Assembly: GCF_000003605.2 (NCBI RefSeq)
Contig: NW_003105101.1
Location: forward strand, 116,983 to 177,061
Source: Saccoglossus kowalevskii
Taxonomy: Eukaryota; Hemichordata; Enteropneusta; Harrimaniidae
Direction of reading: 5' to 3'
Length of the DNA: 60,079 nucleotides
Shown here: positions 1,508 through 39,800 of the stretch, piece after piece
How positions within the stretch are numbered: the stretch's first letter is position 1
How the letters are laid out: every line of letters starts with the position of its first letter
The notes under the pieces: generated by a model
What the model was told of the DNA's origin: nothing
Database searches by the model: none
The model's input: only the letters and a program-made list of their open reading frames with translations
Position numbers and translations under genes: made by a program

Positions 1508-4500
1508 GTAAGACTATTTGTCATCCTGAAAGTCTGTGTTTTCTTGATCTTATGACAGTGACTGAGTAGGAAAACAAAAACAAAAAAATACATTGTTGAG
1601 AGAGTGGGTTGATTTGATTTTATATTTTCTTGTGTAATTATTTATATGAAATTATTTATATTTCAGCAAAGTTTTATACAGCTTCTTTGTGGTGATCATG
1701 AAGTTGCTGTGGTAACCGTTGAAACGCCACTGGAGGAGAGTAACAACAAGCCATCAGGCATTGAACTACTCTTTGATAGACAGCCATGGTCTCAGTTAAA
1801 CCTCTGTTCGTCCTGTAGTAAATCTTCCCAAATGCCTGCTACTGAGGTAAGCTCTCGTAATTTATTTATAGGTTATGATTCTTCTGAGAACTGTTTTTGT
1901 GATGCTGCCCTCTATAGTCTTATGAGGAGGACCTAATCGATCCCACAGTTAAAGGGGAACTGCTCAATCCCATGGATTGCACCACATGCTCATTGGTAAT
2001 TAACTCTGCCTCTGTCCACTAAGTAAATGAATGCTTATTATGCTCGCTTACTCAAACTGTGATTGACAGGCATTTTGCATATATTAGCCGCCATTTTAAA
2101 CACAGGATTTTTACTTGTCGCGGCATGTTTCCACCGAAAACAACAACATTTATACATCAAAAGCCCAACCAGATGAGTGTAATCGCTAGAGTACATATTC
2201 ATGCCCCCATAGAAATGTATTTGGAATCATAGCTTGATTGAAACATCATAAATGGCACATTTCCCGAAGCTCCCCCCACAATGTGAGCGGCTTGGTTCGA
2301 ATTAGCCTACTAATTGCGGTGGCCATCTTGCCCCTATTTATAGTATTGGTTCTCTTTTAATTGCTGCTACAACACTAATCAGGAATGCCAACTAATGCAA
2401 AATACTTTATTTTTGCTACTTTCACTGAGAGATGATTCAGTGAAAATAAAATCCAGCGAATATAACTTTTTTCCTATATTTTACGTTCAATTGTCTTTTT
2501 TAAGTATACACCACTTAAGTAAAAGGACTTTACAATCTAAAATTAATTCTAGAGAATATTAAAAAAGTTATTTTTTCTCCCAGGTGTTTGTCAGAAGAGT
2601 GATATTTGCATACTTGACGTTATTGGTCAATTCTAGAAATGAGATTGCTTTAGCCAGGTGTTTGAACATACCAGACAGGGAGCTGGACCATCTAGCTTTT
2701 ACAGCATTAAAGAAAATGGCTAAAGAAAAAAATATGCCAATGTTTCAGGTAAGCTGTTCTTTTATTTTTGCATTATTCAGTTTTAAACAAGGGAACAGGG
2801 GCGCAGCGCCCTCATGTCATGCGCCCCCCTTACCCCTGGGGAGTAGATCCTCTGGCAACCATAAAATTGTGAATGACCAAGGATCACATGTGACCTGTCT
2901 GATAGTAATTTTGACCCCAAGGAAGCCATAGAATGCTCTATTTTAACTTAGAATTATCAAAAACTCCACACCCTGGTAGGGAGAACCCTATCTGCCCCAC
3001 TTGGTGGCGCCGCTGTATTGCTAATATGGTTCAATTAATCAAGTCTGAAAGGTATGATATCATAGTTTTGAAAGACTTGGTAAGTTCTTAGATCAGTGGA
3101 TTCTTTTAGCTGACTAACTTAGAATATTGTTGCATATCAAAACATGTTGGTACCATCATAATTGCAACAAATCAATGGATAATTCTTTAAATCATGAATA
3201 CTTTCTAATTTATCACAACTTGTAACATACAAAAGAAATACTTTGCAAATACCATGCTCTAGTTCATATTTTGGAGAAAGGATCATATTTTTGGCCTCCG
3301 TATTTACTCCAAAACTTTGCCTGCCGCAAAAAACGAACGATTTGATTTTGAACTCTAATTTCTTTATTTCGTAGCTCACATCGATCGGCCGATTTTCGAC
3401 AAAGGAATATTGCTTTTGAATACCCTCACTTAATCAAAATTACCTATCATCAAATGTGTACAGCACATTATTAAGCATGGAAATATCCCCAAAATACTTT
3501 CGCGTTTGTCGAATCCCACGTGATGTTTGACGCGACTACGACGCTATGACCTTTGTTTGTTCTGTTTTTACGTTCGATTTCACGCTTAACGCGTGATTCT
3601 CGCATGTACGGAAAATGGTCTATTGTGACCAATAACAGATTCTTTTTTACCTTGCAGACTGCCATCTCATTTGTGATGAAAATACGTATCAAATGTGCAA
3701 TAACAGACGATCCATTGTCTCCTTATGTCAAAGGAATGAATGAATTTGTTAATATGATACAAAAATTACAAATAATCATAGAGGAAGATCCAGATACAAG
3801 GTAAAATATTGCTTCAACTACTTTAGAATACTTATTTTTCGCTTGGAATCGATTTTCGCTGGAGGAATGATTCAGTGAAAATAAAATCCAGCGAACATAC
3901 CTTTTTTCCTATATTTCACATTCAACTCGTCAAAAATCAGTGAAAATAAATTCCAAACAAAATGCCCAAAAAGTATATTCAGTGAAAATTAATTCCAGCT
4001 AAGGCTGGGGGGAAAAATTAAAATTCTTTTTTTCCATTAGATTTGTGTGATTCTCAAAGAATTGTAAGTGAGATCATTGATCGGAGAGAAGAAATGAAAT
4101 AAAATTGTATTCCATGTTGTATTCCATAACCTTGTTTCTATTCTGCGCGAGACTTCAGTACTTTGATCATCATACTCCCACAAAAATGTAACTTGGATTT
4201 GTTATGCGGCGGGTGGTAAAAAAATGAAGATAAAAATAATATTTTTTTACCATTTTTTTGCGCTTACAAGTCGGCGGGCGCGAGAAATTATGCTGAAATA
4301 AAATTATATTTTTATTTCATTTTCGGCTTCTGTTCATTTGGCGGGTTCGCGAAACAATGGATAATAAAAGTCTGGCCTAAAATAAAGTATTTTTTACACT
4401 ACTAAAATATCAATGAATTTGGGCATTGTAACAGTTACAGGGAATCTATGTAGAATATAAATGTGTACTTGATTGAACCGGTCATATTGATGTCATATGA

Positions 4501-7500
4501 TGCTTCATTATATATACACATGGCTAATATGGTAGAACTGGTTTGTGTGCACACTCAACTGTTATTGTTGTAAATAGTGTGCCCTCTTAACAGGAATGAT
4601 TTTGTAGGAATCCTGAATCAAAATTGTACGAGTATATGTAAGTGATTGAGGCACACACTTAAATGTTGTAGCACCTGATTTTTTTTTTAGTTTTACACTT
4701 GTCTTGTTTATGAAATGTGAATTTTATTTTACCAAATTACGAATTGCATGACTATAGTCAAATGACTACATCAATGTACAATTTTCTGTTTCTATATATA
4801 TACTATAGTTGCATCACAGCAAATCAGTGGCATCTGGGCACACTGGTTGTAAAATCATTTGTCACTTGGATGGACATGCCTCTAGCTTTGCTCTTATTTG
4901 TAAACTTAGAATGAGTGATTTATTGTAAACTAAGATTCTTTAGGGTCTCTGGAAATTAACCATATTAAAGTTTCTAATCACTCCTCATTAATCCTTTGAT
5001 ATGAAAACTTACCAGCTACTTGGATTTCACCTCAAGTTAAACTTATTTGTAATTGATAAAATGTGTGATTAAACAATATTTTGTTTTCTGGACCATAGAG
5101 CATAAGGACAAATATGTAAAATATAGGAGTACCGTAAAATCTGTATTAAAAGCCGCATCCCTAATAGAAGTCGCACCCATTCTTTTTGAATAATTGAGAA
5201 CAAAAAATTCATCATTTCTCATATGTGTAGGTGCTCCAATAGAAGCCACATTTCCTCTGTTGCATTGTAACATTTTAATAGAAGCCAGGGTTTCTAATAC
5301 AGATTGTATAGTAGGTGATCTGTAAAAAAAAATCCAATCAAGACCACAAGTCTATAAAACATATTTTAATAAAGTTTCTTAGGCTGTTGCCTTACGCAGG
5401 TTTGACTGTACAGAAGTTTGATTGTGGATTTTAGTATCAAATCTGATTTCAAAAGTTCAACAGCTTCAGCAATTGTGCCAATAAAGCCAAAAAACAGAAG
5501 AATATTTTTAAAATATTTGTGTTTTCTTTATTAATTTTGTTTCAGTTCAAGTTTGAGAAGAGTTCTAAATGTCATCAAGAATACGATATGTAAATCAAAT
5601 GATGTGAAGTTGAGGAAATCCAGTGTAGAGGCGGTAACTAGGAAACTACATGATGAGATTGATCAGTTAATTGTCACAAATAAGAATGCCAACTCAAAAC
5701 AAAGCCCTCAAGTTGTAAGTAATATTCAGGAATTTTGAGTATCTGCATAATTGTTGCTAAAAGGGTACTGTACTGCAGAACTGTTTCTATGTAAACAACT
5801 TGGATATGCTGGTGTCAATTGACAAGGGTGTTTCTCAGTTGATTATATATATATATATACAAGCCAGAATTTGATGCGTTAACAAACTTTGACAAACAAG
5901 CTGCTCTCTGATTGGTCTATTAGGCCAAAAAAACAAAAAACAACTTATATTGCCCTCAAGTTGGGAAAATTGGGTCGGTCGGTCGTTTTTGTTGTTTTTC
6001 TTTAAACTCGTGAAAACTAAGTGTGTCGTAAATAGCCAAGGTGTGTGGGGATAAAAAAAAACGCAACCCGATATTTCATATTTTTCAGTCGGTCGATTTT
6101 GCTATAAAGAAATTACAATTTAACAGTCTGCACCAGATTTATTCCAGTTTTGCGTAATATTGGTTTAGATAGATTACCACTACAATCTGTCATTCTGTGA
6201 ACAACTCCTTGCTGCTATTAGAAATATTTGGAGTTTGATATTTTGAGGCTATCGAAGTAATTCTTCTCAAAAATGAACAAGTGAATATTTCATTGCTATC
6301 TGGCTTGTGAAAATGTCTCACAAAGTTAAAATGATTCACAATATCTTATTTTTATATTATTTTTTGGGGAACTCGAAAACTTTTAGATCTTGGAGGTGAA
6401 TCTATTGCCACTAAAGCAGAGACAAATTTAGCCACCGGAATGAGCTCAGTTTTGCATCTTGTGTTTCATGGTTGTTATTCAATCACTATAGATTCCAGAT
6501 TTGATTTATTACTTTTCTGTTATTAAAATGAAAATATATTCTATTTTCTAGTCTGTTTCTAATGGAGGTAGCATCGCTGGACGCCAGAGTATTAAACTTT
6601 TGCGCTTACTGTTAGACCATGAATGTTGCCAAGATATTGGTAATAATTCAGTCTCTGTGCTGAGTGATTGTTATTCCAGTCAGAAAACACCAATAAGATT
6701 CCCCTCACTTTTATCACAATTTAGGTAAGCTATGTCACTTACATCGGTGGTCATTGTTAATTGTAGAAAACTTTACTAACGCTTTTCTACTTAAAGGGGC
6801 ACTTCCAGTTGAGCCTAATCTCACAACAAATTTACTTTCTGGATTAAAATTACAATGGATAACAAAAGGTAGATTAACTTTGAAAACAACATAAACAATA
6901 GTGTCCCATGATTCGTTGGTTCAATCCCTGGGATTGAGCGGGTTCCCCTTTAAAGTATTACAAATTGATGCACTGAATCATGTTGGACCCATAGTGGTGT
7001 ATACAACACATAAAAATATAGCTGAAATTTGAGCATGTACCTTGCGATCACTGTAGCATTTTAAAGTTGCACTTTGACAGCATTCCGAGTTTTATTGGCA
7101 TATTGGAATTATGTGAAATATTTGATGGTCTAAATCTGTGCAAATTGTGAGAAATGAATAATAAAAATATAAATTTTATGATTATTTCAGTTATTTTATT
7201 GAATACTGTTCCAACATGTGTTGATTTACACACTCACTCCAGGCTACAGTGATTTAAAACCAGGCAGAATCCTGACTGATTGTGTGTTTTGTTTTCCCAG
7301 AAATTTATGGAAATTCAGGCATGATGCTTAAAGGATGGTGGTCGTTGCATGAATTTCATGTAAATAAACAATGTATTTTTACACACATTGTATACGTCGC
7401 TATGAGTCCCATATCGAACATGAATCGGCGTAACGACCACTGCCCTTTAAGACCCAAATTAAAACTATGAATTCTCTCAGAATGCAATTTCAACACCATA

Positions 7501-9803
7501 CAGAAATGAGCAGCTATCTTGGTGGGATGTCTCATGTCTAGCTCTGTGTCAAATGAAAAAAATCCTGTTTCACTGCACAAAATGTGTGCTGTGCATTTAA
7601 TTAATTAATTAATCACAACAGTATTTTGGGGCCACAAACTAAGACTACTGTACAATATATTTTCGCTTGGAATTAATTGTTGCTATTTTCGTTGAAGGAA
7701 TGATTCAGTGAAAATAAAATCCAGCGATTGTACTTTTTTTTCCTATATTTTACATTCAACTCATCAAAAATCAGTGAAAATAAATTCCATACAAAACACC
7801 CAAAAAGTTCTTTCAGTGAAAATTAATTCCAGCTAAAATAAAGTAGTTTACAGTAGTTTGAATGAACTATATCTGTGGTCCTCACTAGAATCACTATTAT
7901 GGTGTATAGGATTATTTTATACATTTCCTGGTGAAATAAACAAACTAAATTCTGCTATAAATGACACAGAATCGCTATGTACGAATTAACACAATTTGCA
8001 TATTACCATTTCTTAGTTAATGTTTGTTTCAAATATACAAGTGGTGTAGCTGTAACTTGAATTGTTAATATTTCTATACTACTTCATAGATCTCCTGATC
8101 AGTGTTCTCCAGATGAACCAGAAAACCAGACACTGATTGAAAGAGTTTCCCTCAAGGTCAACAAGCCTCAGGTTAGCAGTGTTATTATTCACTTCCTGGT
8201 CGTCATCACTCAGGTGGAATATATCAGTGTAACTTTGCACAAGATGGGGTCTACATGTCTTTTATTAATCGGGGGAAAAAACAATCTGAACAAACAGTAC
8301 CAGCTGTGATTGGTACATGTGTGCACAGAAAGCAAATCACAATAATCATACTACGATGGGTAGTTGGATACCTTGGTTTATGCAAAGGACTTGGGTCTGT
8401 GTTTTCCATCTATTTAGCTTTACCTGGTAGGGTAAACAATTGTATTGCCAAATTTTTTGACTAGTAGTTAAAAATAGGAAGGAAATATTTCATAATTTAA
8501 AAGGTGACGTGGTCATCTGAGCAATAAGTTTTAGTTGAGTCAAAGCACATTTTGAAAGAACCTGTCAACAAACTAGCTATTCTCTGATTGGTCTGACTGT
8601 CAGGTGTAATGGTTGGGTAGCCAATCAGACACAGTCTTGTATGTAGCTTTGTATTGAATCATAATCAATGGATTTAGAGACCTGTACTAATAATGCTTTC
8701 ACTAAATGTCTGTTATGAGCAAAGTATTTGGGAAATTCTGGGTCTGTCTAATCAAGGAAAATCAGAACTTTTTCATGTATATTCAACATATCACTTGCTA
8801 GATGTTTTTCCCCCTCGCTCATTTAGACTATCGGTTGAGGCTTTCAGTAGGTGGTGTTAAATACCTGAAAATATTCTTGAAATATGGAATTAGTAAATAC
8901 TATTATACATCTGTCGCCGTAGCGGCATAAGTTACAGTGTGCCGTAATTTTGCGGTATTTACGGGTATTTTCATCCTACCAAATATGGAATTATTATTAC
9001 GGGTGTAAGCGTCCTCTAATAAAACAAACCATGGTTTGACCAGACTCCACACAAAGAAGTTCGCTGATTCTGTGTCTAAACTTTAATTTCGTCATTCCCA
9101 TGATGTATCCTTGGTAGGATAAGATATATAATAATAAGGCTATTATGAGGATACCTCAAAGTATGCACTTAGGCAGTACGCCGTGGCGGGAGTATCGATC
9201 AATGCGCAGCGGAGGTCATTACTCCTGCTGTACTGCATACGTTGAGGTATCCTCAAAATAACCTCATATTAATATTAATTGTTGTCTTTTTGTGAGTGGT
9301 TGGTCTCATGATTGCTGCCAACTTTTGTCAATCATTCTGTTTTAGACTCTTCATTAATGATGTGCTTATATATTGAATTACAGAGTTCATTCCAACAAAT
9401 CAGTCACCAATCTTGTATGGCATGGGCTGATGAAGACATGCTGAAAAAACCAGCACTGGATCCTCTGATGATATACCAAGATGCCCCACTGTCTGCCACG
9501 CATGATGTCACCAGTGATGTCACAGCCAATAACATAAAAAACACTAAAGAAAGTTTTCTAATTGTGAAAAAACAAAAAGATTTGAAAAAGAGAATTCTTG
9601 AAGAAATTGGAGATGATGAAATTGAAATTGAGGAACCACCGGTCGAAAATGCTAAAAAAAAATCCAAAAAGAATAAAGAAGTCAAGACTAACATTGTTAA
9701 AGAAAGTAAATCCAAGAAAACTAGTAGTGTTACGAGGAATAGAAAGAAAGCTATGCCATTACAGAAAGGACAGAAACAAATGACACAGTTCTTCAGGCTC
9801 TAA
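1246..9803 (+). CDS. PARPBP: PARPBP/PARI-like PCNA-interacting partner (gene, 5' end incomplete)
   Basis: Joined exons 1246-1507, 1667-1846, 2584-2748, 3658-3800, 5546-5714, 6552-6724, 8090-8171 and 9384-9803 give about 530 codons once a one-base slip near 1462 is allowed for. All junction phases agree. PARI is a nuclear protein with a UvrD-helicase-like fold without helicase activity; it binds PCNA and RAD51 and restrains homologous recombination. Diagnostic stretches are LLVNSRNEIALARCLNIPDR (exon at 2584), YVKGMNEFVNMIQKL (3658), the GRQSIKLLRLLLD segment (6552) and the C-terminal QKQMTQFFRL PIP box. The C-terminal exon is Lys-rich, as in the family. Vertebrate PARI is near 580 residues, so only a short N-terminus is missing. 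The gene is convergent with the glutamate receptor gene. Family assignment is from remembered similarity, not a search. Confidence 0.85.
1667..1846 (+). CDS. PARPBP: PARPBP-like exon B
   Basis: TTTCAG acceptor, GTAAGC donor, 60 codons, phase 0/0. It encodes QSFIQLLCGDHEVAVV followed by a Ser/Cys-rich stretch ending QMPATE. The start aligns with the short FLSG-like segment of vertebrate PARI; the rest is probably a poorly conserved linker. Confidence 0.75.
1949..2360 (+). mobile_element. Possible MITE family 5 (TTAAAGGGGAAC ends), copy 1
   Basis: Starts TTAAAGGGGAACTGCTCAAT-CCC and ends GGTTCTCTTTTAA, a 12-bp imperfect inverted repeat. The start block recurs inverted at 6963. Confidence 0.5.
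2400..2562 (+). mobile_element. MITE family 1, copy 2
   Basis: Left end ATACTTTATTTTTGCTA, then GATTCAGTGAAAATAAAATC. The right arm is shortened and diverged. It ends about 20 bp before the acceptor of PARPBP exon C. Confidence 0.75.
2584..2748 (+). CDS. PARPBP: PARPBP-like exon C (most conserved block)
   Basis: CCCAG acceptor, GTAAGC donor, 55 codons, phase 0/0. It encodes VFVRRVIFAYLTLLVNSRNE and then LNIPDRELDHLAFTALKKMA. The LLVNSRNE...LNIPDR combination is the stretch of PARI that resembles UvrD-type helicases, and it is the strongest evidence for the family call. Its acceptor lies only about 20 bp from the end of a MITE copy. Confidence 0.9.
3270..3640 (+). repeat. Interspersed repeat family 7, copy 1
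   Basis: Shares CATCAAATGTGTACAGC, TTGTCGAATCCCACGTGATG and GACCTTTGTTTGTTCTGTTT with 19340-19660. Ends just before PARPBP exon D. Confidence 0.7.
3658..3800 (+). CDS. PARPBP: PARPBP-like exon D
   Basis: CTTGCAG acceptor, AAG/GTAAAA donor, 47 codons plus two bases. It encodes TAISFVMKIRIKCAITDDPL then YVKGMNEFVNMIQKLQIIIE, which matches the 'V.GL..F..FI.KL' helix of PARI. An interspersed repeat shared with 19.4 kb lies immediately upstream and a MITE starts about 28 bp downstream. Confidence 0.85.
3829..4003 (+). mobile_element. MITE family 1, copy 3
   Basis: Starts about 28 bp after the donor of PARPBP exon D, with left arm TTCGCTTGGAATCGATTTTC, the common internal block and right arm AATTAATTCCAGCTAA. 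Confidence 0.8.
4027..4380. mobile_element. MITE family 4, copy missing one end
   Basis: Inverted relative to the 53592 copy: shares ATTTGTGTGATTCTCAAAGA, GATCATTGATCGGAGAGAAG and GTCGGCGGGCGCGAGAAATT, and ends AAAAGTCTGGCCTAA. The first 80 or so bases with the other inverted repeat are absent. Confidence 0.85.
5141..5302. mobile_element. Possible short inverted-repeat element
   Basis: CTGTATTAAAAGCCGCATCC at one end, and AATAGAAGCCAGGG with TTTCTAATACAG at the other, are inverted relatives. AATAGAAGYC is repeated inside. Confidence 0.45.
5546..5714 (+). CDS. PARPBP: PARPBP-like exon E
   Basis: TTTCAG acceptor and consensus GTAAGT donor. One base completes the split Ser codon from exon D, then 56 codons. 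It encodes SSLRRVLNVIKNTICKSNDV and continues as a basic helical segment (KLHDEIDQLI). The family has a similar helix before its variable central region. Confidence 0.8.
6552..6724 (+). CDS. PARPBP: PARPBP-like exon F
   Basis: TTTCTAG acceptor, AG/GTAAGC donor. It reads SVSNGGSIAGRQSIKLLRLL then LDHECCQ and ends RFPSLLSQFR. The 'CGR.(S/T)(I/V)K.L..LLD' pattern and the terminal Phe-Arg split codon agree with PARI. The longest open stretch is under 60 codons, so simple ORF length would miss it. Confidence 0.85.
6791..6963 (-). mobile_element. Possible MITE family 5, copy 2
   Basis: Left TTAAAGGGGCACTTCCAGTT, right GAGCGGGTTCCCCTTTAA. The right edge including TCAATCCCTGGGATTGAG is the reverse complement of the start of copy 1. 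Confidence 0.55.
7328..7450 (-). mobile_element. MITE family 3, copy 1
   Basis: Ends TTAAAGGATGGTGGTCGTTG and ACGACCACTGCCCTTTAA are inverted repeats. The interior holds TACGTCGCTATGAGTCCCAT, shared with the other copies. Confidence 0.8.
7650..7845 (+). mobile_element. MITE family 1, copy 4
   Basis: Nearly full length: left TTTTCGCTTGGAATTAATTG, right AATTAATTCCAGCTAAAATA with AAGTAG. The two ends are inverted copies of each other over about 25 bp. Confidence 0.85.
8090..8171 (+). CDS. PARPBP: PARPBP-like exon G
   Basis: ATAG acceptor, CAG/GTTAGC donor, 82 bases. The first base completes the Arg codon begun in exon F, giving FR/SPDQCSPDEPENQTLIE, then RVSLKVNKPQ. The FRSP.Q junction is shared with vertebrate PARI. 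Confidence 0.8.
8905..9290 (+). repeat. Interspersed repeat family 6, copy 1
   Basis: Shares ATTTTCATCCTACCAAATAT and GTAAGCGTCCTCTAATAAAA with 47012-47260. The right half is itself an inverted repeat: TATGAGGATACCTCAAAGTA near 9143 against TGAGGTATCCTCAAAATAAC near 9243. Confidence 0.7.
9384..9803 (+). CDS. PARPBP: PARPBP-like last exon with C-terminal PIP box
   Basis: TACAG acceptor and stop TAA at 9801-9803. After a Ser/Gln-rich start it encodes an acidic patch (EEIGDDEIEIEE) followed by a long Lys/Ser-rich basic tract, probably nuclear localisation. It ends in QKQMTQFF-RL, a textbook PCNA-interacting peptide (Q-x-x-M-x-x-F-F, codons 9771-9794) at the very C-terminus, where PARI has it. 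Confidence 0.9.
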   Translation, partial: SSFQQISHQSCMAWADEDMLKKPALDPLMIYQDAPLSATHDVTSDVTANNIKNTKESFLIVKKQKDLKKRILEEIGDDEIEIEEPPVENAKKKSKKNKEVKTNIVKESKSKKTSSVTRNRKKAMPLQKGQKQMTQFFRL

Positions 9804-10340: not shown

Positions 10341-10719
10341 CATTGGTAAATTTGTTACTATTTAATCTAATCATGTGTATAATTTTAAATTAGATTTATT
10401 CTCAAGATTTAATATTTGAGCCAATAGTCCTCCTTGTGTTGGTGGTGCTCTTGAAACAAGTTTGGAGTGAGTTGACTACAATTTTGTTGATTTTTAAAAT
10501 ATGTTAAACTGTATAATTTTATTAGATATTTATTGAAAATTTTTATGTCAAAATTGTTACTGCCATTATATAATTTCTTTTTATTTAATGAAATTTTTAA
10601 TCAAATATTGTGAGTTAAGGTCTATGATTGCACAAAGCATGGTTCACTTTACCCACAATGCTTGTATACTACAGTATACTTGGGAGAATTGAATGGGGGG
10701 ACTCACACACTTTGTACTG

Positions 10720-10922
10720 CAAAATATTTTATTTTCGCTTGGAATTAATTATCGCTATTTTTGCTGAAGGAATGATTCAGTGAAAATAAAATCCAGCAAA
10801 TGTACCTTTTTTCCCAATATTTTACATTCAACTGGTCAGAAATCAGTGAATATAAATTCCATACAAAAAACCCCAAAAAGTCTTTTCAGCAAATATTATT
10901 TCAAGCTAGAATAAAGTAGTTT
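10720..10922 (+). mobile_element. MITE family 1, copy 5
   Basis: Full-length copy in the convergent intergenic region, with left end TATTTTATTTTCGCTTGGAA and right end AGCTAGAATAAAGTAG. Confidence 0.85.
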
Positions 10923-11371
10923 ATACAGTATTAGCCTGGTTAGATTCCTGTTATTTTGTGGGTCTTTCTCCCGCCATTTTGTGACTGTTTATGAACCACA
11001 AAATAAAAGGAAGATAACCAGGCTAACCATGTTAACTTTATAGTGCAAGAGCAATTCTGCTGGTTACAATATGGCTCTGTACAGTGGTCAGGATTTTAAT
11101 AATTTTAACATTTATTTTGAAGCTGTATAACATCACCACGGTTTGATTGGTTGATATTGCCTTGACATTAATTTGTTCAATTGATGTATACTGTAAAATA
11201 AACAAGTTATTCTGATAAATGTTTTTGTCCATTATTAATTGACTATGCAAGTCATTAGCAGTTATGTTAGATGTAGGCAGTTGTCAACTCAAAGTAATTA
11301 GTTTCTGGCTCAGTAACGTGCCTAGTGTATAAGGAAATTTGTCCAGTATGTTGCTGGTATCCAGTTGAGTG

Positions 11372-12621: not shown

Positions 12622-12885
12622 CTACATAATAGATTCTGTCGTTTCAAACGAACAAGAGTTAAGTCGATATTGCCTATTTGGTGATTTTATTGACAATTGT
12701 GACCGCAGTGGACATTCTTCTAGTCCCGGCGATTCATACTCGTAGTCAGGAATCGTGTGACCATTTTCAGTCCCCGTTTGTCTGTCCGTTATTTCATCTT
12801 CTGGGTGCATACCACAACAGAGGCACGTTTCAACAAAGTCATCTCTGGTTCTAGCCGCTCTTCTCGACGCTGCCTGGCACCAGGT
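12622..12885 (-). CDS. iGluR exon 14: cytoplasmic tail and stop
   Basis: TTTCTAG acceptor and stop TAG at 12622-12624; 87 residues. It is hydrophilic: Arg-rich start (SRRAARTRDD), a CLCC cluster, an acidic Tyr-containing stretch (PDYEYESPGLEE) and a Ser-rich end (ETTESIM). No canonical PDZ ligand at the terminus, although the final residues resemble a weak class I/II form. Assigned by phase and position; the tail is not conserved between subfamilies. Confidence 0.75.
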   Translation of the reverse strand, partial: TWCQAASRRAARTRDDFVETCLCCGMHPEDEITDRQTGTENGHTIPDYEYESPGLEECPLRSQLSIKSPNRQYRLNSCSFETTESIM

Positions 12886-15800
12886 CTAGAAATAAAAAAT
12901 TACGTAACTGCATAAAAATGTAAATGACACCAGACATCCAAACCAGAGTTACTTCAATAAGGTAGCAACAAGATAAGGTTTTAAAATGATCTGTGATTCA
13001 GGTGAAAACGCTGTTTTACACGCGTTGTGTACGTCGCTATGAGTCCCACATCGAACACGCCGCGGCTCGATGACCGCCGCCCTTTAAAGCGTGTAAGGAA
13101 TTTCTTGAGTGGATACATAAAATAAAATAAAAAACTAGTAAAATAAAAAAAACATTTATCAAAATATCATCAAGTTCATTAGCATATACTGTATATAAGC
13201 CAGTGGAAACATACCCTTACCGTAAATCAAAAATTGCATAGCAAAAACACAGTTATGAACGCAACTACAACCAAAAACATGGAAAATGCATTTAAAAAAA
13301 TAAGTGCATCAAAGTATACAAACAAATGATGATGTTTCGAAAGACTTGTACTGACATCCACCGTACTTCATTCTAAATACCAATGCGAAAACGCCATGTT
13401 ATAATTGCTCAACTATCGCCAATAGTCTGCTGCCCTCTACGCCAGTTTATACGTACCATTTGTTTGTGGTCACGTCTTTCTCTATATGCAGCCCAACACC
13501 ATTCAATAACCACTACTAACAAACCAACAGCAAACCCGCCAAATAAACAGTAGAACACGCCAGCCATACCATGGAAATTTAGCGTCGTTTCACCGGGCGT
13601 GGACCCATCTAGGAAAAACAGATAAACAACGGCATATAACATTAATGTAAATAATTATTCAAGTTGACAAAGTGTATATTATATTGTTTCTGGTAATTTT
13701 GTTTCAAAAATAACAGCGAGGCATACTTTCTTATTACCAGCGCCCTCTAGCGACGAAATTGGATGACGTAAATGGGTGAAACCTGAAAGAAGGCCATTCA
13801 CGGCGTCGATATTATTTTCACCTGTAGCTACATGTTTTAGGGGAATTAATTATTTTCTTTAAAAAAATATCGCTTTGAAAGATATTGCTTTCACCAATTT
13901 ATATCATATTGACGTCACAGGAGAACGTTGTCGCTAGAGGGCGTTTATTTGCAGACTTCTACTGGTGGTGCTGCCATGCGGATTGATTATAGATAAATAT
14001 ACATGTATGTAATATTGCTGCTCGACTCGGTAAGCATCGGTTCGTTACTTGAGTGTGAAGCGTGCTGATGAATACATCACAAATCGACTGGCGTTCGTGA
14101 ATACGGCTACATCAGACCAAACTTTTAGACCTAGGAAAATAAAGACAGATCTGGTCAATACATACACTATACAATCATATACTGACACAAACATTACGTA
14201 CCGCCAACATTCTGACAATCTCCTTTAAAATATTTCTGGTTCAATTTATCAATAAATCCTTTTTGACGTAGTCTTAAAATTTCCAGTGTAACCCTCTCGG
14301 TATGCGGAGAATTTAATTGTAGACCAATCCCGTATCCAATCTTAGCGAATGTCGCCCCCACCGTTCGCACATCGCAAGGTGGTTTACTCGCTGCGTAGTC
14401 CAAAACTGCAGAGTCCCAGATAAATGCGTATTTCCCATTACGGACTTTGTTGATTCCCGCCACGGAGTCGTCAACCAGGGTGTCGTAGGCCTGCATGAGG
14501 GATGACATTCGTCGGTAAGGATCGGAGTCCGATTGTTCGAAAAACGACTGCGGTTGACTGTCAGCTACGGTGCCAAAGTAGATATCAGAATTAGCTAAGT
14601 CGTCGATAGAATTAATACCTGGAAAGAAAACAATGCCAACATTTAGCGGGCAACAAACTGTGCTGTCTACTCGTATGCCTCTGATAAAGGGCCTTTGCCC
14701 AATACGTTACACGCAACAACAATTACCAAACGGCGTAGTTGCGTGCTCACAGGTATGGGTTCCGAAATTAGTTTCTGATAAAAAGTCGCACTTCAAAATA
14801 TTTATCGTTTTCCGGTTTATATTTGAAATATATTGTTAGTACGATCAGTTTTCGTGTCCTGTGTCCATTTCAGTTCAATGTGATCACAACCAGTATCGGT
14901 ATAAATATGCTTTTAAAAACGGAACACAAACACACGTGACTTATGACAACTTACCGCTGTTCAATCTCGCCGCAGTCAAATACGCTGCTAAATTAGCTGT
15001 ATACGTGGCGATGATGACAGTGACAGCTAGCCACCAAAACCCTCCAACTACGCGACCAGATAAACAACGTGGCGTGTACTCGGCCCCCTAAAATCAAATA
15101 TGCTCAAATATTATTATTACTTAAGATTTCTCGAAATTTAATTTTTGCAATTAATGACAATAGATTTTTTTTTATTTTACATTATGTGTTGTAGAACACA
15201 AAACATATATATGTTTAGTGGAATAATAAACCACGCATGCAGGTGGAATTAATAGTACGTACCAGTAATTCGAGCACATGGTTACTTAGTATATTAATTG
15301 ATGAAACAAATACTTTTTTATGCGTGACTAATTCGATGTAATTCAATAGATGTAAGTTAAGGATAACACAATAACGATTTACCGACCTGATGGGTCCACG
15401 AGGCGAAGGCGAACCAGAACGCCTGGGGAAGCGACATCAGTTTGCGTGAGCTATACGAACGCTGTTCACTCAAATCAATCCGCTGAATATACATGCCATG
15501 GAAGCCGTACGGACTGAAATAGCTACATAGCGAGACGCCCACTCCACACGCTACCATGGAGACGAAGATAGCGATCCACAAGTCGGTACTGAACGGCTCT
15601 AAAAACTGAAAGAGTCGTCTCTCTTTTTTCTCGTGTCCGAGTAAAATAGTCAATCCCAAGTCCAGATAAGGTTTGGTGAAATCGATCGTTTGCTGTCGCT
15701 CGTAACTAATGGTAAAAGGAGCAACAGCCCAATCGACTTCCTGTAAAACAAATCAAGAAACAGGTGTTAGCAACTTTGTATCTATGACAACCAGTATTTC

Positions 15801-18800
15801 GGAGGTAAAATATTTCTCAGTGGTTAACATTTAACTTCAGGCGGTAGAGCTCGTCGCCATCGACAGTTCACTCTACGCTTACACTATTGAAATTCAATTA
15901 TTATTTTCATATGATCTGCCTCAAAACGAACATAATTGCCATGGCAACAGAAACCGGTAAAGGTATATATTACAGCGCCTTACCCGCTCTTTCAACTGCC
16001 GCACCATACCATTCCACTCGCCAGTTTCAGGGTCAAGTGATCCAAAATTCCCATCAGGCACCAGTTCTAATTCGTACTCAAATTGTAACGCCATTTGTAA
16101 TTTGTCCAGTAAATCTTTGCAAAATCCGTGAAATCTGTCATTTCCGGTTGTGTTATCGCTTCTGACCATCATAAACGGTTCCTCCTGAGACACGAATACA
16201 TGTATTCTAGTGAGCAACTCTTCCGACTCTGAACACAATGTCTTACAGCGGGTGCCGAAATAAACAAAGTACATGCACTCAGAAAACAGGATTCAATAAT
16301 ACACCGTCATCTTTTTTGCTCGAAATCTGATATCGGTTTAAATCAAAATCCACGCAAAACATATGAAAATGGTTCCATTCACTCATTGCGTTTGAATCTG
16401 AGTGGCTTTCACTGTACACAGCGTGAAATAGGACTGTCATTTTGCTGAAATTGACACCGTTGGAGATGTTCTTAAGAATATACTGCTACGTTGCAAAAAA
16501 ATTATAGGCTGGTCTATTATTTTCTTGACCACTTCCAAGTTCGCCGATATAATTAACTTATTATCTATCGTGCTATTGAAATATTTTGTGAGTGATGTTG
16601 ACTTCATATAAATTACGAATCATCATCTTCTTTTAGCAAGTTATCTGAATACTGTATTTGTGGATTAACTTGTTGTTTCATTATTTGTTCTTGGGCTATG
16701 TTTTGGTAATTTACCATACTATGCCCTCAGTAGTGTTGTAATAAAGTTGTAATACAGTTATCGTAATCCTGACAGTTATTCAAATTTGTTGTTATTTCTC
16801 GTAGTCTCTTTCAGGAGTCTGACCTAGACAATGGCATCACACCACAGTCACTCTCCTAGTAGAGTGACTGTGATCACACAAAGCAATGGATGCTGGGAAT
16901 GGTTCGCTTGTAGAAACAGAACTGTTCAAGACTGTCTATCAAAATACTGAAACACGCAGGGGCACTGGAACCAACAGCTTGAGACGAACACTGACTGTTA
17001 CTTTTTACGGACTCGAACTTGTCTTGCGATTGTGGGATTATCACGTAAGTTGAGTGACTCCAAATAGGCATACCACTCCAATTTGCATACCCGTAACATA
17101 TACATTTTTGTAATACATAAAAGTCACTAAATGTATTTAAAAAAATCATCAAACTCACCAATATGGTCGTAATAATCAGTGTAGTATTGCTAAGATCATA
17201 GTCGTTGTCCACCGGTGCTTCCTCTGTCGCACCCATGAACGTTATCAATGAGGAGTTCACGTCGATATCTCCCTTTGTCCGCCACTCTCCAATCTGGGAA
17301 GATAAAGTTACACTTATTGGATGTCGTTGAACTAATTATGCATAATCGCTATGATGTCACAACACTTTTTTTATTTTGTATAAAACGTTTATAACGTTCA
17401 CCACTGCAGTGTTCCAGTGTGGAGAGATAAATGTCTGTACAGATATGAAACCATGAGAGCGGACGATGAAAATTAAACAATTACGATTCTTGTCTATTCT
17501 AATATGTATATATCTATTGTTAATTGTGGTCACTGGTACGGTTTAGTACCTTACAGTAATTTGCTGGATCATTTCTATGGTCTTACGGTATAATGCCCTA
17601 ATCTATCGATTTAGTGTGAATATTGTAAAACTTTATCTAGACACATTATTAAAATTTTAATATCAAAAATTATGATATTATCTACGTCTCCAGTTTTCTC
17701 GGAAACATGTGTGTATTTATATGTACTCGCTAGCATTCCCAGGCTCGATTAGGGGGGGTATATTAGGGGGGGTATGACCGTGACTTCTGTTGTTAGTGAA
17801 ATTGTAAAATAACTTTAAATGGAGACACTTTAGAAGAAAATTAAACTCTGAACCAGAAATATTTACGCGAAAACCCATATTAAGAAAAGTGTTGCGTCAC
17901 TCCCGAGAGATTAATATTGTTATCCTGACATTTTAACGCGAGCGAAAGATAGTGATAGTATCCCACAATGCCATGCTGGAACTCTTGGATTATACTACCT
18001 TTAATTAATGTTACTGTACTTACCTGTATTGTGCCATTCGCCTTGAAATTAACAATATCATACACGGTGACAGCCGGCGTCCTTGTATGGGTGAAATTCA
18101 AATATCTAGCTGTCCCTGGGCCACTAACCTATAACATAAGCAATACTTGTCGTCAGACTATTTAGAAATGCTGCAAAATATGAACGTGTCCGTTATACAA
18201 TAGCCATAACCATTCACGATATTGCCTAGGAACGATGCCAGAAATAGCTCATTGTACATTTAGATTATGTAACTGTCACATACTATGTGACGTCACAGGC
18301 GGTAGTGAAAAAATAAAATACTAATTGACCATTGATCAGTTTGAAATATGACCGCGGTGATTCACGTGGTGATTTGACGCCATTTTTCATTAGCCAATCA
18401 TATTTAGGGTCAATAGCTGACCCCAGTTAACAATTACTAGCATCGTTCCTAGGCGTTGGTTGTGTGCGGTTTAGTGCGTGAGGGCGGCACATAGATTATA
18501 TACAATGGTAGGTATTCGTGTCAAGCTTGGGTAAGGCAACAACTGTTTTTAACAACTCATTTTTTAGCCTTGGCTCTGTTAAATACGTGGCATTTTGTTT
18601 TGTTTTTTGATATTCAAATGATGTTTTTCAACGATCCGAGTCAGGGTAATAGTCTTGCATACACTTTTCCATCAGATAGTCAAGCCTTTAGGGGCCATAC
18701 CTATTCGAAGTTACTAATTCGGTTTAATCTTGTAAACCCGTACAATTCTGAAGATGCCGAAAGGTGAGTAACACTACCTGTTCTAAATACTGCATCAAGA

Positions 18801-21800
18801 CTGATCCGTGTACCCATGGCAACGACTCCTCATCAGCACAAACTTTTCTAGTGTAATTTGGCGGTGACCATGGCAACCCATCTTCGAAATACTCTGTCAG
18901 AGCATAAGCGACTGCTAAGATGGCATCGAATATATGGTATACGAATGGCTGCAACGAAACATAGTGTGCAACGGTAAAACTCTGACAAAAAACATCATTT
19001 TTACTTGTACTATTACTATACATTTTTAATTAGTGTGTATAAATGGGTATCTTAGAAATTTTTGTCCTGAATTAACAAAAAATGCCCTTTTACTTAAAAA
19101 TAGCGTTTTTTGGTAATTTTTAAGACCAATATCTCCCTACAACATGGCCGATGTTTTCTGATCTTTTTTAGAGATTTTCATTACACTATGATCAGTACAT
19201 TTGTTTACGATTTGTGGTAATTTTATTATTATTTGCAAAAGGTTGCTGCAGGTGAACGCATAATGATTGTATAATGAATTTAAATAATAAATACTGAATC
19301 AATTTATGATTAATCATGATCTCATTCTGAATATAGTCGAAACACTCGTATATTGCCTGAAAGGTGCGGATCGGACGTCCGCAGCAAAAATCGAATGATT
19401 TGATTTCAAAATACTGATCATTGAGAGGAGGATATTGCGTTGATATACCATTACGTCATCAAAATTGTACATCATCATCAAATGTGTACAGCTCATTATT
19501 TGTCGAATCCCACGCGATGCTTTGACGTCATTACGACGCTAGGACCTTTGTTTGTCGTGTTTTTACGTTCACGTCGTCTCAATCTGTCAATATGGTTCGT
19601 CTGACGGAATGCGCTGCATACGTGTTGCGCCTACGTAACGCGGGAACTCATAGTATACGGAAAACTTGTCCACACAACTTGTTTTACTTAAATATTGTTG
19701 AATTAAGGCCTGCGGTAGAAATATATTATCAACTGTAGCGTGGTTTTTACAGAAGCCATTCTCTGTAATTGCATAAATAGAGTTTGACCAATTTGCAAAT
19801 ATTTGATTTATTTTTAAATATTGACGTGAAAATCTTACTTAGAACATTTAAAAGCCTCTATGCATCTATATTAGTAATTATTCACATAATTTCTAACACA
19901 TTGGCATTATTATCGCGGCAGTCCATTTTGGTAAAATTGATTGCGCCTAATTTACTTGTTTTCAAACATGAAACTCCTAACTTAATTCTACATCACACCT
20001 CGCGAAAGTATTTGCGACATCCATCGGCGAGGGCACTGTCACACAACATCACTGCCAGTTGTAGACCGTTCGTTTCCCAGTGAGTTTATTCATTCATATT
20101 TACATTTACAGTCCTCGCAATGCATACATAAATAGTATTTATCAGTTCTGACTAAAGGTTGAAGAATACATCGGGATTTGAAAGGTTTACAAATAATCGA
20201 TATGCCATGTTGGCAATGTTAGGAAAGGCCGATGACATCATCGCTGTTATTTTATAACACAAGTGCGTTAAAAGATAGCGACGTGGTAAACTAGCTAGTC
20301 AATCCATGTACAGCGGCCGTGTACCAGGAAATTATTCAACTCCTTCGGGGGAGCTGGATTAAAGAAATGAAGCTGATTCACATAAGTACAACGTAATTGG
20401 GCGATGTTTATTACGTTGGTGTCAATTTTGAAGGGGTTATAAATTGCATGTAGCTTAGGAATGTGTCAGTTAGATTCAGGGGGTATTTTGAAATAAACCA
20501 TACTGGAGTACATGGCGGAGAGTAATCACTTTTAGCAAACTATAAATGACGTCATTCCGCACTGCATTGTAGGTAAAAGAAAGTACGTCCCAATCGCCCG
20601 CCCCTATAAATGTATCATTGGTTTTGACGTTTTTATTTCGCCCGTGCTTCCAGTTGCTTCTCATCACCACAGTGTTTTTAATAGAGATACACAATCAACG
20701 CAAAATATCATGCATCAAATAGCGTACCTTACGGTGGATTATGTGCAGCAACCATATAATTTGTGGGAGGGGGGGGGGCTAAATAAAAATAAAATAATCA
20801 GACCTCAGCGTAAATCATTTTAAAGGGACAATAGCTGTGATTTTGAACATTGTTTTGTTTAAACAAGTATAATGTTATATAAAATGCGACGTGGAAACTA
20901 TGGGCCCAGTAATTGCTCTTCCCTTCCTTCGCACGATAACGTATAAAATCATCAGTGAGAGAACGTCAGATAGAGGCTAAGCCCCTCAAGATGGCATTTA
21001 TCCCAGGGCCACGGTAAGTTATCATCGTAATTCCGGACATTCGCTTGATGAAACTAGATTTTAATAGATTGTCACGGTGCCCTCTCAAGTTGCAAGTGGT
21101 TTAATGTACAACGTCGGTATATGTCGCATAAACTATGTTTACAACTTGAATGTCCACATTTCAGTAGTCGGCGATGCTCGTTACAAATTTACACTCATGA
21201 AAAAGGAAATGTTTTATTAAAAATAAAAATCGGAAAAGAATGATCGATAGTTAATACTTGGTGTACGATGGTGATTGGACTAATTTTATTACGTCATGTT
21301 GTCAAATGAACATTGACAGAAGCGAAACTACGTAGAAATGATGACATCATGGACGCTGGTTATGTGGATATGACGTCAATAGTATTCGTCTTTTATAAAA
21401 CAGAACGTTTATGCATGATGCATTATGGGAATAAAATGGTCGTCCATTTTTAGTATGCTGGGCATTATTACTGAAATTAATTCCTTCTTTTGCTTCAGAA
21501 TTCAACTACTTATTCATACATAGTAAAACAATTACAGCATTAATACAATTAACGGAATGACGTAAATCGGAATTACAAATGTCTGTACATAACACAATGA
21601 CTGATGGCGATGGCGGTCAGTACAGAAAATCACAGGGAGTTACGAAACACCAGATCTTCTGTACTTGCAGCTTTCTGTCAAAGTCGCTAACAACGATGAC
21701 CGGTAAACGTTCTGGGGTGAGAACCAAACTCTTCGACCCGACACCCTCCCGTGTGACTCCCTCCAAAATGTCACTAATAATGTATTTTTTATACCAGACT

Positions 21801-27800: not shown

Positions 27801-30800
27801 TAAGTCTGATTGATTGATCATTCTGACAGAAAAACAAAAACTTGCGCAAAACTTCCGACCTGTTGCTGACTTGCCATTCTCAGCATATACCCTACAGTAG
27901 ATAAGTCTCAACAACGATTTGGACATTTTTATTCAGCCTCATAGGTTATAACGTGTCAGTTCAGGAATGACTAAATTTAGATCATGGACATTTCTTTTTC
28001 TGTCCACTTAATACTACAGTGAGTCAGTTTTTGCTTCACGCCTTTTGGCAGTAATAAACAAAGTGGGGGAGGGGGTTAAGTTATAATAAGAATAAAACGT
28101 TTTCATTTACTCATTATATTATGAACAACCCCCTAACAAGTAGATGCCTTATAAAACACACTCAGCTGAATTGTGTTATGTAAATGTCTACTTTGTCGAC
28201 CTTTTCCCATGATGCATTATGCGAAACAAAATGAAAACGTTCTAAAGACGCGCACGTTTGTAGTATTCGAGGTAATGCGAATTCTCCAAGGATATAGGAT
28301 TGTGTGCAAATAACATATTCTCACCATTGTTGTAACAATATCCGTTGCTATCCAAGCCCATCCTTTACCCGTCATGCCCAACCTCTCGGCCTGACGTAAC
28401 ACCACATTTGCATACAGTGCATGACAATGAAGTAATACAATGCGGACACCTTTTGAACGAATATTCATTAGCTGCTCTGTCACGTCCAGTTCGGATCGAT
28501 TATTGGTTGGCCAGAATTGTTCCACGCTAACTATCGACCAATCACGCTCCACTGCCATTGTATGAAACTCACGAACAAGACCGTTTACACCTAGAAATAA
28601 TAATGACGTTGTCATGGTTACTAAACATAATTTGAAGAATACAGAATTACACGTGTTCTTCAACTTCAAAAACTCAATGATCTAACAGTGAATTGAGCAG
28701 CAGGTTTCTTCAACAAAGAGTTTATACGTATTTTATGAAAATTTGTTAACCAGGAATTTGTATACACCACAATTACAAAGATGGCGTGTAAAAAGTGAGG
28801 ATTAAAACTAACCGTATTCTGCATGTGACGTCAGAATAGCAAACCTCGTCCACTTGAAGTGTTCTACTAAATCTACCAAAACAGCGCTTTGAATATAATC
28901 TGGTGACGTCATCTTCATCAAATATGGGAATGTAGTTTGGTGTAAGGACAGCAACGAATCCGTCGCGAGGATTGCGATCTGTGGTATATGAAGCGCTGAT
29001 GTGATTGGATACGATGCTCTGACTCCTTGTGAACTTAGGGGGCCTACCATAGTTACAATCTCCTTAGAAACCTGTCGACAAACTGGACAGAAATGACTCG
29101 TAAATGATGGAATTAAAAAATTCCTACAATTTGGCCCTGCTCGATAACTAAAATATATTCCCGGAATTCGTTTTTATGCAGCACGCTACCTAATTCCAAC
29201 CTTAAAGGTGAAACGGAACATTTTTTGTGTTATGTACCCCAAGCTCTCTGGATTTTTGCATTTGAATTTCAGATATGTTCACTTCTGATAGGAACATCAT
29301 AAATACGAAAACATGGTGACATCACATCCGCTACTTCAGATGCATTGTGGGGTCAGATAGCGCTGCATAAAATATGTATCCACCCGACTTGTGAGTTATA
29401 TACCTAAATACGAATGAAGAGCAGTATTTAGACCGCGCTCTACACGAATCATTGTATTGTGGTTGTCGTCTGCTGAAACAACTAAATAAATACGACATGC
29501 TGAAGATATTCAGTTGACTAAGTGGTGTTTTTTCTTTGCAACTAACCGCCGACAACTTCAAAGAACGTGTACCGACAAGCTACTCAAATAACAACAACTG
29601 TCGTTCAAATGACTTTGAGATTGACGTGGGCAGGTTATTGCAATTTGATAATAACATCGCCATGAGTAAAAAAAACAAATGAACAATGAAATATTTTCGA
29701 GTTGAGATGGTTTTCTATTTTTAATTAAACCCGTGTATGTTTTAAATCTCGCAAACGTCAGACACTCACATCAATACTAGTCTCATTCTTAAAATCAAGC
29801 TAATCTTTTAAAACAATTATTGAATATAAACGGATAAGTAAGATAATAATGAAAAGAAACGTAACCATGCGTTCTTGGTCAGCGTAATGCAGTAATACCT
29901 ACAATGATTTCAGGTCGCTAAATCATAAACCGATATTTTAAATCGATAAGACAAGATTTATGTCAAAATGCCCCATCCAAACTTTCCATCAGATTCAACT
30001 GTGTTTTGGTTTCCATGGTAACATATATTCGACGGTTATGTAGCATTATTAGAACCTTTTTGTCGAATAATGTCGTGACGAATGTCATTTCAACATGTAT
30101 AATTCAGTGAATCTCGCCAGTTCTACAATACGCACATGGACAGACGGTCTCAGGAGTTATCGGCACCATTCATGTTGGTCATGTCGGTAGAATAATGGGT
30201 CAATATTCTGGCACGCTGTCCGTTTGTCCGCCGATCACATTAAAATAAAGCTATTCCCATCATGCAAGATGTTTGAAATGTCGCCGCATTGACCGCCAGG
30301 AAGAGATTGCAGCGAAGAAATCATAAAATCATAACATCCGATAAAACAGTTCAAGACATGACTTGTCTTCATTTGTTTACGGATTGTAAAAACTATAAAT
30401 AAAATAAAGCCAGACTCGTTTCCATGCAACCAGGATGTTAATCTCGTAGCTGTACAGCGGCCATTTTTACAACAACTATGAAATTATACGATGTTGTACT
30501 TTGAAAACAGATTGAACAATTACAACAATTTCTTAAGAGAAAATATCGGCTGCTATTATACGGAAAATTATACTTACCATTTTGGATGTATTCAAAACTA
30601 TCAAACTGTCGTGAAATTCTTGAACAGAAATATGAAAATTTGGTAAAAGGCAGAATGGAAGGATTCTCATTAACATATTTTGCGGCTAGGACTAAAGCTA
30701 ATATTTCCGATTCACTCGGGTCTTCTTCCAATAAGACACCTAGAAAAAAACAATGTAACAATTATTAAATCAACTTGTCGACTGATATGAATTTCATTCA

Positions 30801-36800: not shown

Positions 36801-39800
36801 GGTTCATTCACATTCACACAGCGTTCGTGAACATTCATTCGTACAGCGTTCGTACGTCTCGTAAAACGTTCGCACATATTTATACGACCCCGCACACCGT
36901 TCGTACATCATTCGTAAACATCATCATTCACATTTTCGTATAACAGTTGTAAATATTCGCACACATTCGTACACCCTCGGACATTTCGGATAACAGTCGT
37001 ACACACTCTTGCAGTCTCGTACACATTCGTACACCGTCGGACATATTCGTATAACAGTCGTACACATTCGTACAGTCTCGTACATATTCGTACATATTTG
37101 TAGCCAGTTTGTTCATATCCAGGGTCCATATTCACGCGTGATAGTGCAACATTTGTACACATTTCTATTACATTCGTATAACTTTGATAAAATGTTAATA
37201 TTTGTCGTACTGACTCATTTCGTTATTGTAATAATAAGATTCAATAAAAAAGGATGATATATATACATTTAACGTAAAATATTGGTCATTGTTGAATATT
37301 TGATTATTATTATATTTTATAAAAATTTTTTTTTGTATAGTGCTTTCAGGGCAATGTAACATACATATATTTCCATTTGTTTACACACAGACGGACTGCT
37401 TTTTGTCTGTCAGTCGTCCAGCGCTTCCATGATCGTTCGTTGTTGCTAACATTTTAAACACTATGAGATTGAAAAGAGGGGTTTTCCGTAGGTTGGAAGT
37501 GCGACTAAATCAAGTAAACTATCATTATTTTAATGACGTTTTAGTCAAAAGTGGGCAATTTAAACATGATATATCTACAATTTACTACGATGAACTTTAC
37601 GGTAAATGATTTTTATTATACACACATGCATTTCAATGTTTACTAGGCGACAATTTTTTTTACCATTTTCGGTAATTTCTGAAGCAAGAATCGTGTCGAT
37701 GATTTAAGTTTCATCTACAGTGTGTTGTTAACAAATACACGATCAAATTATTAAACATGGTTTTCAAAAAGTTCGTGAAACGATATTTTCGTAATGTAAT
37801 CGATGTTCTGCGCATGCCCGCTAAGCATTATTCCACTTATATTATAAGATCAGTTGGTTTGGCAACAAATCCAGAAATTCTGGAGCAGTGAAACTAGCTT
37901 GTACTGATTTCTCATAAACTGTACACAATCAAAATCCAGTATGATACTTCCAGAGGTCAGTGAGAGTATTTTTTACAGATCATACGAAGCGGGAATTTAA
38001 CTTTACCAATCTAACATGGAGGTTACTAGCCACCTATTCCAATTATGCATAGCTACTAGACGGTGACTGCATAATATGATGATATATCATAGATTGACGG
38101 TCAAGGTCTTTATTTCCAACGTTGCGGTCGAATAGAGTTAATAGTTTTCAAAAAATGTGGTACTGTCATTTGCTGTAAGTAGGCAGGCAATTTAAAGTTG
38201 TTATATTACAACAACACTTACTTTACCATGAACGTCGCGGTCAATGGTTTTTATTATGTACGTATGTTTGGGAGTTTATGAGAAAAAGCATTGGCACATA
38301 AAACCGCGCATGCGCATAACTTCCTACCTATAGTTCCTGGCAAATACATGATTTTCCAGATCTTTTGATAAAACATAGTCACAGTGGTTATTCCGAAAGT
38401 TTATTTCCTGTAACCGATCATTGACCCGTCGGCTGAATCTCTCAACGGCCAACAAAATAATGCAGTTAATTTTGGCTTTTTTTTACAATGTCTCTTTAAT
38501 GTCAACGCTATTATGCAAATTGAAATGGTGGTGATGGAAGATTGACGGATGTTTCTTGATGTGTAAGAAATTAATCCGCTTGAGAGACGGAACGGTCGTG
38601 AGTGGTCCAAAATATAATTTGGCCGCAAGGTATTATATCCCTGCAACGAACTGTCCTATTTTCCGCCGGATTACGTTCAATTATAAATGCAACGTCCGTA
38701 CACGGCTTATTCTGACCCAGTAACACTGCGCGTGTGACACGTTGCTATGTAACCAACTATATACTTTGGCCTCTTTCTAATAGATCGCGTTTCATTGTTT
38801 CGACGACTAACAATTGATGGTATTGAAAATCTGTCAATGTCAAATACCATTGTTCCACCTGTCGATTAAGTGAGATGTATGAGAGGCATACTCCATGATT
38901 GGTGTTAATATACGAACAAAAATAACTAACTGCTTAATCGCGGTCAAAGGTCAAAACAAACAGTTGTTTGCAGAATTGAAAAACGAAAAGTAGAACATAA
39001 ATTGCAATTCAGTATATACTAAAACAAGGAAATTTGTAAAATGGCTATCACATTGCCGAACTGGCCAACAGTTTGCGTTTATACTATAAACACATCGTAT
39101 CGAGCAATTTAGTGAAAACCACGTCCTATTTGAAGCTTTCAATTCCGTACAACAAAATCTCTATGTTCAAGCATAGGGCTAAACAAATTGTATCGATATG
39201 AGTTCACTATCTTCCTTTTGTTTAGCTCCATGATTTTACCATAAGAGGTTAATTAGTAACCATGTACTATGGTGGTAAGTCATTAAACTTTTGTGACAGT
39301 CTTTCTCGCTTGCAAACGTCTGTTCGTTATATTACTACACCCATTACATCAGCAATACACCCATCTACGTCGCAGTTCAACATAACTACACCCATTACAT
39401 CAGCAATACACCCACCCACATCGCAGTTCAACATAACTACACCCATTGCATCAGCAATACACCCATCTACATCGCAGTTCAACATAACTACACCCATTAC
39501 ATCAGCAATACACCCATCCACATCGCAGTTCAACATAACTGCACCCATTACATCAGCAATACACCCATTCATATCACAGTTCAACATAACTACTCCCATC
39601 ACATCAGCAATACATCCATCCACATCGCAGTTCAACATAACTACACCCATCACATCAGCAATACACCCATCCACATCGCAGTTCAACATAACTACACCCA
39701 TTACATCAGCAATACACCCATCCACTCATCGGGAAGCAATTTTTTATTAATATCCTAAAAATATAAAGTAAAATGTAGAAAACGTTGTGCCCTGTCGTCT

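Follow-up and report, generated by a model that had tools for sequence, protein, structure and literature searches.

Glycine-type residues and an unusual glutamine in the ligand pocket of a glutamate receptor gene of Saccoglossus kowalevskii

Which ligand opens the ionotropic glutamate receptor (iGluR) encoded on the minus strand of contig NW_003105101.1 of Saccoglossus kowalevskii (assembly GCF_000003605.2)? The window, that is, the whole stretch of DNA analysed, covers 60,079 nucleotides (positions 116,983 to 177,061 of the contig), and coordinates below count from its first letter. An earlier note, made from the letters alone, had marked 14202..16184 as a glutamate receptor with a glycine/D-serine-type pocket that lacks the usual Ser/Thr contact pair, and had argued that the receptor probably does not use glutamate. 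We arrive at the same prediction by a different route. A ligand other than glutamate is likely because positions 653, 655 and 704 (mature GluA2 numbering) are glycine-type under the selectivity rule given in PMC6307864 and PMC12226733. Judged from these residues, the protein is probably a cation channel gated by glycine or a similar small neutral amino acid (D- or L-serine, alanine) and not by glutamate, a reading that we favour with moderate confidence.

The gene and its residue register

We joined nine exons of the gene between 12622 and 18948; all eight junctions are of the GT-AG type, and one frame stays open to the final stop. More of the amino-terminal domain is encoded at 28220-29173. 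Its S1-to-stop part (12622-16184) accounts for six of the exons and five of the GT-AG junctions, in a single frame with zero internal stops. The limits of the earlier-noted feature coincide with the exact outer ends of four exons, from 15984-16184 to 14202-14618. Once spliced, the 429-residue protein from S1 to M4 matches GluA1 over nearly its full length (residues 1-423, E = 2e-92; HMMER, PDB). This alignment and Pfam searches of the separate exons (ANF_receptor, Lig_chan-Glu_bd and Lig_chan) together show the make-up of an animal iGluR: an amino-terminal domain, an S1/S2 ligand-binding domain, M1-P-M3-M4 and an M3 of the SYTANLAAF type. The minus-strand gene is an intact-looking, ordinary-looking animal iGluR subunit, and its introns and family point to animal nuclear DNA.

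For the pocket we compared six references: GluA1, GluA2, GluK2, GluD2, GluN1 and GluN2A. Throughout the stretch compared, the GluN2A, GluD2 and GluK2 references show no difference from PDB chains, and the ligand-binding domains of GluN1 and GluA2 were also checked; the compared ligand-contact residues therefore rest on checked sequence. In the residue map, the GluA2 landmark residues carried the expected letters. With the pocket Phe fixed as residue 511, Pro539, Thr541, Arg546, Gln715, Pro716, Trp761 and Asp762 all fall at the numbers given in the earlier note, and the six-reference alignment equates these eight residues with 450, 478, 480, 485, 654, 655, 704 and 705. That note's residue assignments are thus confirmed by numbering and alignment alike.

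The note had also set Gln-Pro against GluA2 Ser654-Thr655, and this alignment is gap-free: the receptor reads Gly-Thr-Val-Ala-Asp-Ser-Gln-Pro-Gln-Ser-Phe-Phe, GluA2 Gly-Thr-Leu-Asp-Ser-Gly-Ser-Thr-Lys-Glu-Phe-Phe (MAFFT). The spacing from Gly-Thr to Phe-Phe is equal in GluA2 (MAFFT) and GluA1 (HMMER), and GluD2, aligned by HMMER, likewise shows no gap at this place. We reject a shift of a Ser/Thr into 654/655: in our sequence alignments, three of them gap-free here, Gln-Pro stays in place, and the adjoining Ser falls at 653. Gene, register, residues and iGluR membership are established.

The ligand pocket

In PMC12226733, ligand contacts are listed as backbone contacts (450, 478, 480, 485, 654, 705) and side-chain contacts (653, 655, 704, 708, 732). 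The receptor has Phe, Pro, Thr, Arg, Gln and Asp at the former and Ser, Pro, Trp, Val and Tyr at the latter. Over these 11 positions it is identical to GluN1 at 8/11, to GluD2 at 7, to GluN2A at 5, to GluA1 and GluA2 at 4 each (the two agree letter for letter at all 11) and to GluK2 at 3. With GluN1 it shares Phe450, Pro478, Thr480, Arg485, Ser653, Trp704, Asp705 and Val708, but differs in Gln654/Pro655 (Ser/Val in GluN1), Tyr732 (Phe) and a pore histidine (Asn). With GluD2, a delta receptor for D-serine and glycine, it shares Thr480, Arg485, Ser653, Trp704, Asp705, Val708 and Tyr732; it differs in Phe450 (Tyr in GluD2), Pro478 (Ala), Gln654/Pro655 (Ala/Val) and the pore histidine (Gln).

The published rules tie ligand choice to a few of these positions. 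Ser653 with a non-polar residue at 655 is the mark of glycine receptors (PMC6307864); a hydrophobic 655 (V, L, A, I or P) goes with glycine, and Phe732 is named too (PMC12226733). From Ser653 and Trp704, amphioxus GluE1 was predicted to be glycine-gated, a prediction that was borne out (PMC6307864), and the exchange S653G/I655T in Trichoplax GluE1alphaA moved the ligand mostly from glycine to glutamate (PMC12226733). As far as the published descriptions of these two Epsilon receptors allow a comparison, our receptor has Ser653 in common with both, a hydrophobic 655 with Trichoplax GluE1alphaA (Ile there) and Trp704 with amphioxus GluE1. It carries Ser653, the hydrophobic Pro655 and Trp704, the last accompanied by Asp705 and Arg485; a conserved Arg485 with an acidic 705 has been taken to indicate that an amino acid is bound (PMC6307864). 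Thr655, which marks glutamate-type pockets (AMPA, kainate, GluN2), is replaced by Pro.

The grounds on which the earlier note had predicted a non-glutamate ligand fare less well than the prediction itself. Asp705 is no proof of such a ligand: glutamate-binding GluN2A has Asp there. Nor is the missing Ser/Thr pair an anomaly. The pair occurs in three of the six references, all glutamate-type (GluA1, GluA2 and GluN2A); GluN1 has Ser-Val, GluD2 Ala-Val and GluK2 Ala-Thr, and since glycine-type GluN1 and GluD2 do without it, its absence from a glycine-type pocket is expected. Position 653, which the note did not list, belongs to the published selectivity set and is a glycine-type Ser here. The pocket reading is thereby corrected: the published signal sits in 653/655/704, not in Asp705 or the absent pair.

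The note had further called Gln-Pro an unfamiliar combination. It is indeed found in 0/6 references, but Pro655 is already listed among the glycine-type residues, and across the compared sequences Gln654 (0/6) is the only unusual contact. A PDB search with 34 residues returned one match, GluK2 with Ala-Thr, whose E of 1.5 is too weak for judging whether other solved receptors have Gln-Pro. In scans for relatives, viral contigs gave 58 pattern-matching stretches and prokaryote genomes 32, with 0 confirmed in either set.

From these residues we infer ligand, affinity, assembly, gating and ion selectivity as follows. The protein would be one subunit of a tetrameric channel, permeable to cations as its family suggests. 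In the upper lobe, Arg485, Thr480 and Pro478 would hold the carboxylate and amine of the ligand; in the lower lobe, Asp705 would hold the amine. Ser653, Pro655, Trp704 and Val708 would make the pocket short, Trp704 and Val708 shortening it as in GluN1. Proline has no backbone NH, so Pro655 counts against glutamate: it would take away a backbone NH that touches the gamma-carboxylate in GluA2. This carboxylate is described as meeting the backbone amines of T655 and S654 (PMC5766834). Gln654 may be a local variation, as the main contact at 654 can come from the backbone and the side chain there varies (Ser, Ala). As in other iGluRs, M3 would be pulled when the lobes close. Read in this way, the gene would extend the set of animal iGluRs whose pocket is glycine-like.

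Several observations weigh against a glycine-type reading. The receptor has a glutamate-type Tyr732, found in GluN2A but in GluD2 too, and not the Phe732 named for glycine; with Tyr732 as in GluD2, the pocket is glycine-like but falls short of a full match to the rule. In GluD2 itself, changing the equivalent Tyr770 to Phe lowered the dissociation constant (Kd) for D-serine from 809 to 117 uM, and D-serine affinity is lower in GluD2 than in GluN1 (PMC5384001). Gln654 could fill the pocket. Position 654 tolerates change but is not neutral, since GluD2 A686S, at this place, shifted the D-serine Kd modestly (809 to 1090 uM) and, in the lurcher channel, made D-serine about 6-fold less potent (PMC5384001). 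Finally, an AlphaFold model of the S2 exon alone had a mean predicted local distance difference test score (pLDDT) of 39.1 and was unusable.

Receptor class and competing readings

The class of the receptor bears on its ligand, since GABA (gamma-aminobutyric acid) gates the delta receptors of invertebrates: those of starfish, acorn-worm and acoel respond best to GABA, and binding residues alone do not reveal this (PMC10861852). We placed the receptor by trees and by approximately unbiased (AU) and Shimodaira-Hasegawa (SH) tests on seven sequences, unrooted, in which it is the sole invertebrate member, delta is represented by one sequence, and Epsilon and Phi are absent. The tree from the whole alignment sets it outside AMPA/kainate/delta with a support of 67; because the trees are unrooted, this outside branch could equally lie beside the NMDA pair. 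Support for the outside branch was 42 for S1S2, 44 for the membrane part and 48 for S2; S1 gives another topology, in which GluD2 lies closer to NMDA.

On the full alignment, the AU test keeps the outside branch (0.757), a sister of AMPA plus kainate (0.354) and a sister of GluD2 (0.206), and rejects a sister of AMPA alone (0.0015) or kainate alone (0.0009). Kinship with GluN1, which the AFIWDSAVL-type stretch might suggest, is rejected as a sister placement by AU (0.0011 for all positions, 0.00075 for S1S2) but kept by the more conservative SH test (0.076 and 0.059); for a sister of GluN2A the values are 0.0013 and 0.0001 by AU, 0.075 and 0.057 by SH. GluN1 and GluN2A carry a long insert in loop 1 of S1 that is missing here, which counts against NMDA. 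Identity over the whole alignment is level (GluN1 37%, GluA1 36%, GluD2 36%), and in S1 it is highest to GluK2 (50.5%; GluN1 46.8%). The segment between M1 and M2, where an insertion is a trait of Epsilon, has 31 residues, against 17-29 in the six references. The most plausible candidate classes for the receptor are delta, Epsilon or some other class of AKDF.

A delta-type receptor of the invertebrate kind, opened chiefly by GABA, with Asp705 holding the amine of GABA and Arg485 its carboxylate, would fit the S2 exon, whose best PDB match is GluD2; S2 is 41.7% identical to GluD2 and 27.8-31.8% identical to the remaining five references. The unrejected sister-of-GluD2 placement and the GABA preference reported for the delta receptors of the three animal groups point the same way. 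Against this, the best tree sets the receptor, if weakly, outside AMPA/kainate/delta, S1 is nearest kainate, Pro478 stands where GluD2 has Ala, and Gln654 where Ser is reported for invertebrate delta receptors (PMC10861852). We regard GABA gating of this kind as unlikely, though still worth keeping in mind. It is rather unlikely, too, that Ser-Gln-Pro at 653-655 forms a new pocket floor in which the Gln654 amide stands in for the partner of the ligand's side chain or carboxylate and so sets a ligand other than glycine or glutamate, for instance GABA, beta-alanine or a further small amino acid. If that were true, the gene would encode an excitatory channel for a transmitter unexpected in that branch of the family, and if Gln654 does change the ligand, the receptor would offer a clean one-residue test of the role of position 654.

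The same glutamine might instead reach into the cleft and keep free amino acids from binding, which would leave an orphan or auxiliary subunit that acts in heteromers alone, forms a constitutive channel or serves in adhesion as a partner. Its absence from all six references and the case of amphioxus GluE7, where a bulky Tyr653 accompanies zero response to the six amino acids tried (PMC6307864), lend this some colour. The anchors Arg485, Asp705, Thr480 and Pro478 are nonetheless retained, and Arg485 with an acidic 705 is the published sign of amino acid binding noted above; we give such a subunit a slim chance. Equally slim is the chance that glutamate is still bound, as in GluN2 subunits with Asp705 and Tyr732. 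GluN2A has both residues in common with our receptor, and PMC12226733 allows Ser653 in glutamate receptors, provided that 655 is Thr and 732 is Tyr. Here, however, 655 is Pro, without a backbone NH for the gamma-carboxylate contact, and 704 is Trp. Glycine or a similar small neutral amino acid remains the ligand that we favour.

Pore site and features of the window

At the Q/R/N pore site (15390-15392, minus strand) the receptor has His, with Glu four residues downstream; the six references have Gln or Asn. By published description, this differs from most non-ctenophore Epsilon receptors, which have Gln586 (PMC6307864), and resembles the Phi class of AKDF, for which the absence of Gln at 586 is reported in all surveyed subunits (PMC6307864). 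With histidine there, the passage of Ca2+, the block by polyamines or the response to pH may be changed. Among the matches listed in literature searches we found no further functional study of Phi receptors and no evidently relevant study of His at an iGluR pore site, which does not prove that there is none. The exons and pocket codons are collected in Table 1.

Table 1. Exons, domains and pocket codons of the receptor gene, in window coordinates
Feature	Position	Strand	Evidence
Amino-terminal domain, two open stretches (28811-29173 and 28220-28681)	28220..29173	-	Pfam ANF_receptor, E = 1.2e-14 and 1e-13; exon ends approximate
Amino-terminal domain exon	18778..18948	-	AG/GT ends; weak ANF_receptor match, E = 0.0011, below curated cut-off
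Probable amino-terminal domain exon	18024..18128	-	AG/GT ends, in frame
End of amino-terminal domain and start of S1 (NTTLIITTIL)	17159..17293	-	AG/GT, in frame; last ten residues align to GluA1; alone no Pfam match
S1 exon with Glu402 and Phe450 places	15984..16184	-	AG/GT; Pfam Lig_chan-Glu_bd, E = 1.4e-21; best PDB matches kainate receptors
End of S1 (Pro478, Thr480, Arg485 places), M1 and pore loop	15387..15740	-	AG/GT; Pfam Lig_chan-Glu_bd, E = 9.1e-9; Lig_chan below cut-off
M3 exon with ATYTANLAAY (SYTANLAAF motif)	14955..15087	-	AG/GT; Pfam Lig_chan, E = 3.4e-13
S2 exon	14202..14618	-	AG/GT; best PDB match GluD2, E = 2.5e-21; alone no Pfam match
Ser653 codon	14557-14559	-	
Gln654 codon	14554-14556	-	
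Pro655 codon	14551-14553	-	
Trp704 codon	14416-14418	-	
Asp705 codon	14413-14415	-	
Tyr732 codon	14332-14334	-	
M4 exon	13457..13608	-	AG/GT, in frame; aligned to GluA1 M4; open stretch around M4 alone no Pfam match
Probable C-terminal tail exon with stop codon	12622..12885	-	AG acceptor, frame fit

Apart from the receptor gene, an open stretch at 2563-2928 (plus strand) matches UvrD_C helicase weakly (E = 0.0012, below the Pfam cut-off); it may resemble a PARPBP/PARI exon. One dispersed repeat family, with copies 81-94% alike on both strands (13014-13092, 7351-7450, 43779-43911 and 51333-51466), is perhaps a short interspersed element; its copy at 13014-13092 lies inside the receptor intron between the M4 and tail exons. 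Copies of a second dispersed family are 77-88% alike (1-197, 2389-2493, 3815-4002, 7644-7863, 10715-10930 and 53000-53145). Repeat arrays occupy 39331-39725 (units of about 51 bases) and 59562-60079, the latter reaching the end of the window. Two segments of about 350 bases, at 4024-4380 and 53592-53938, form an inverted pair that is 89% alike.

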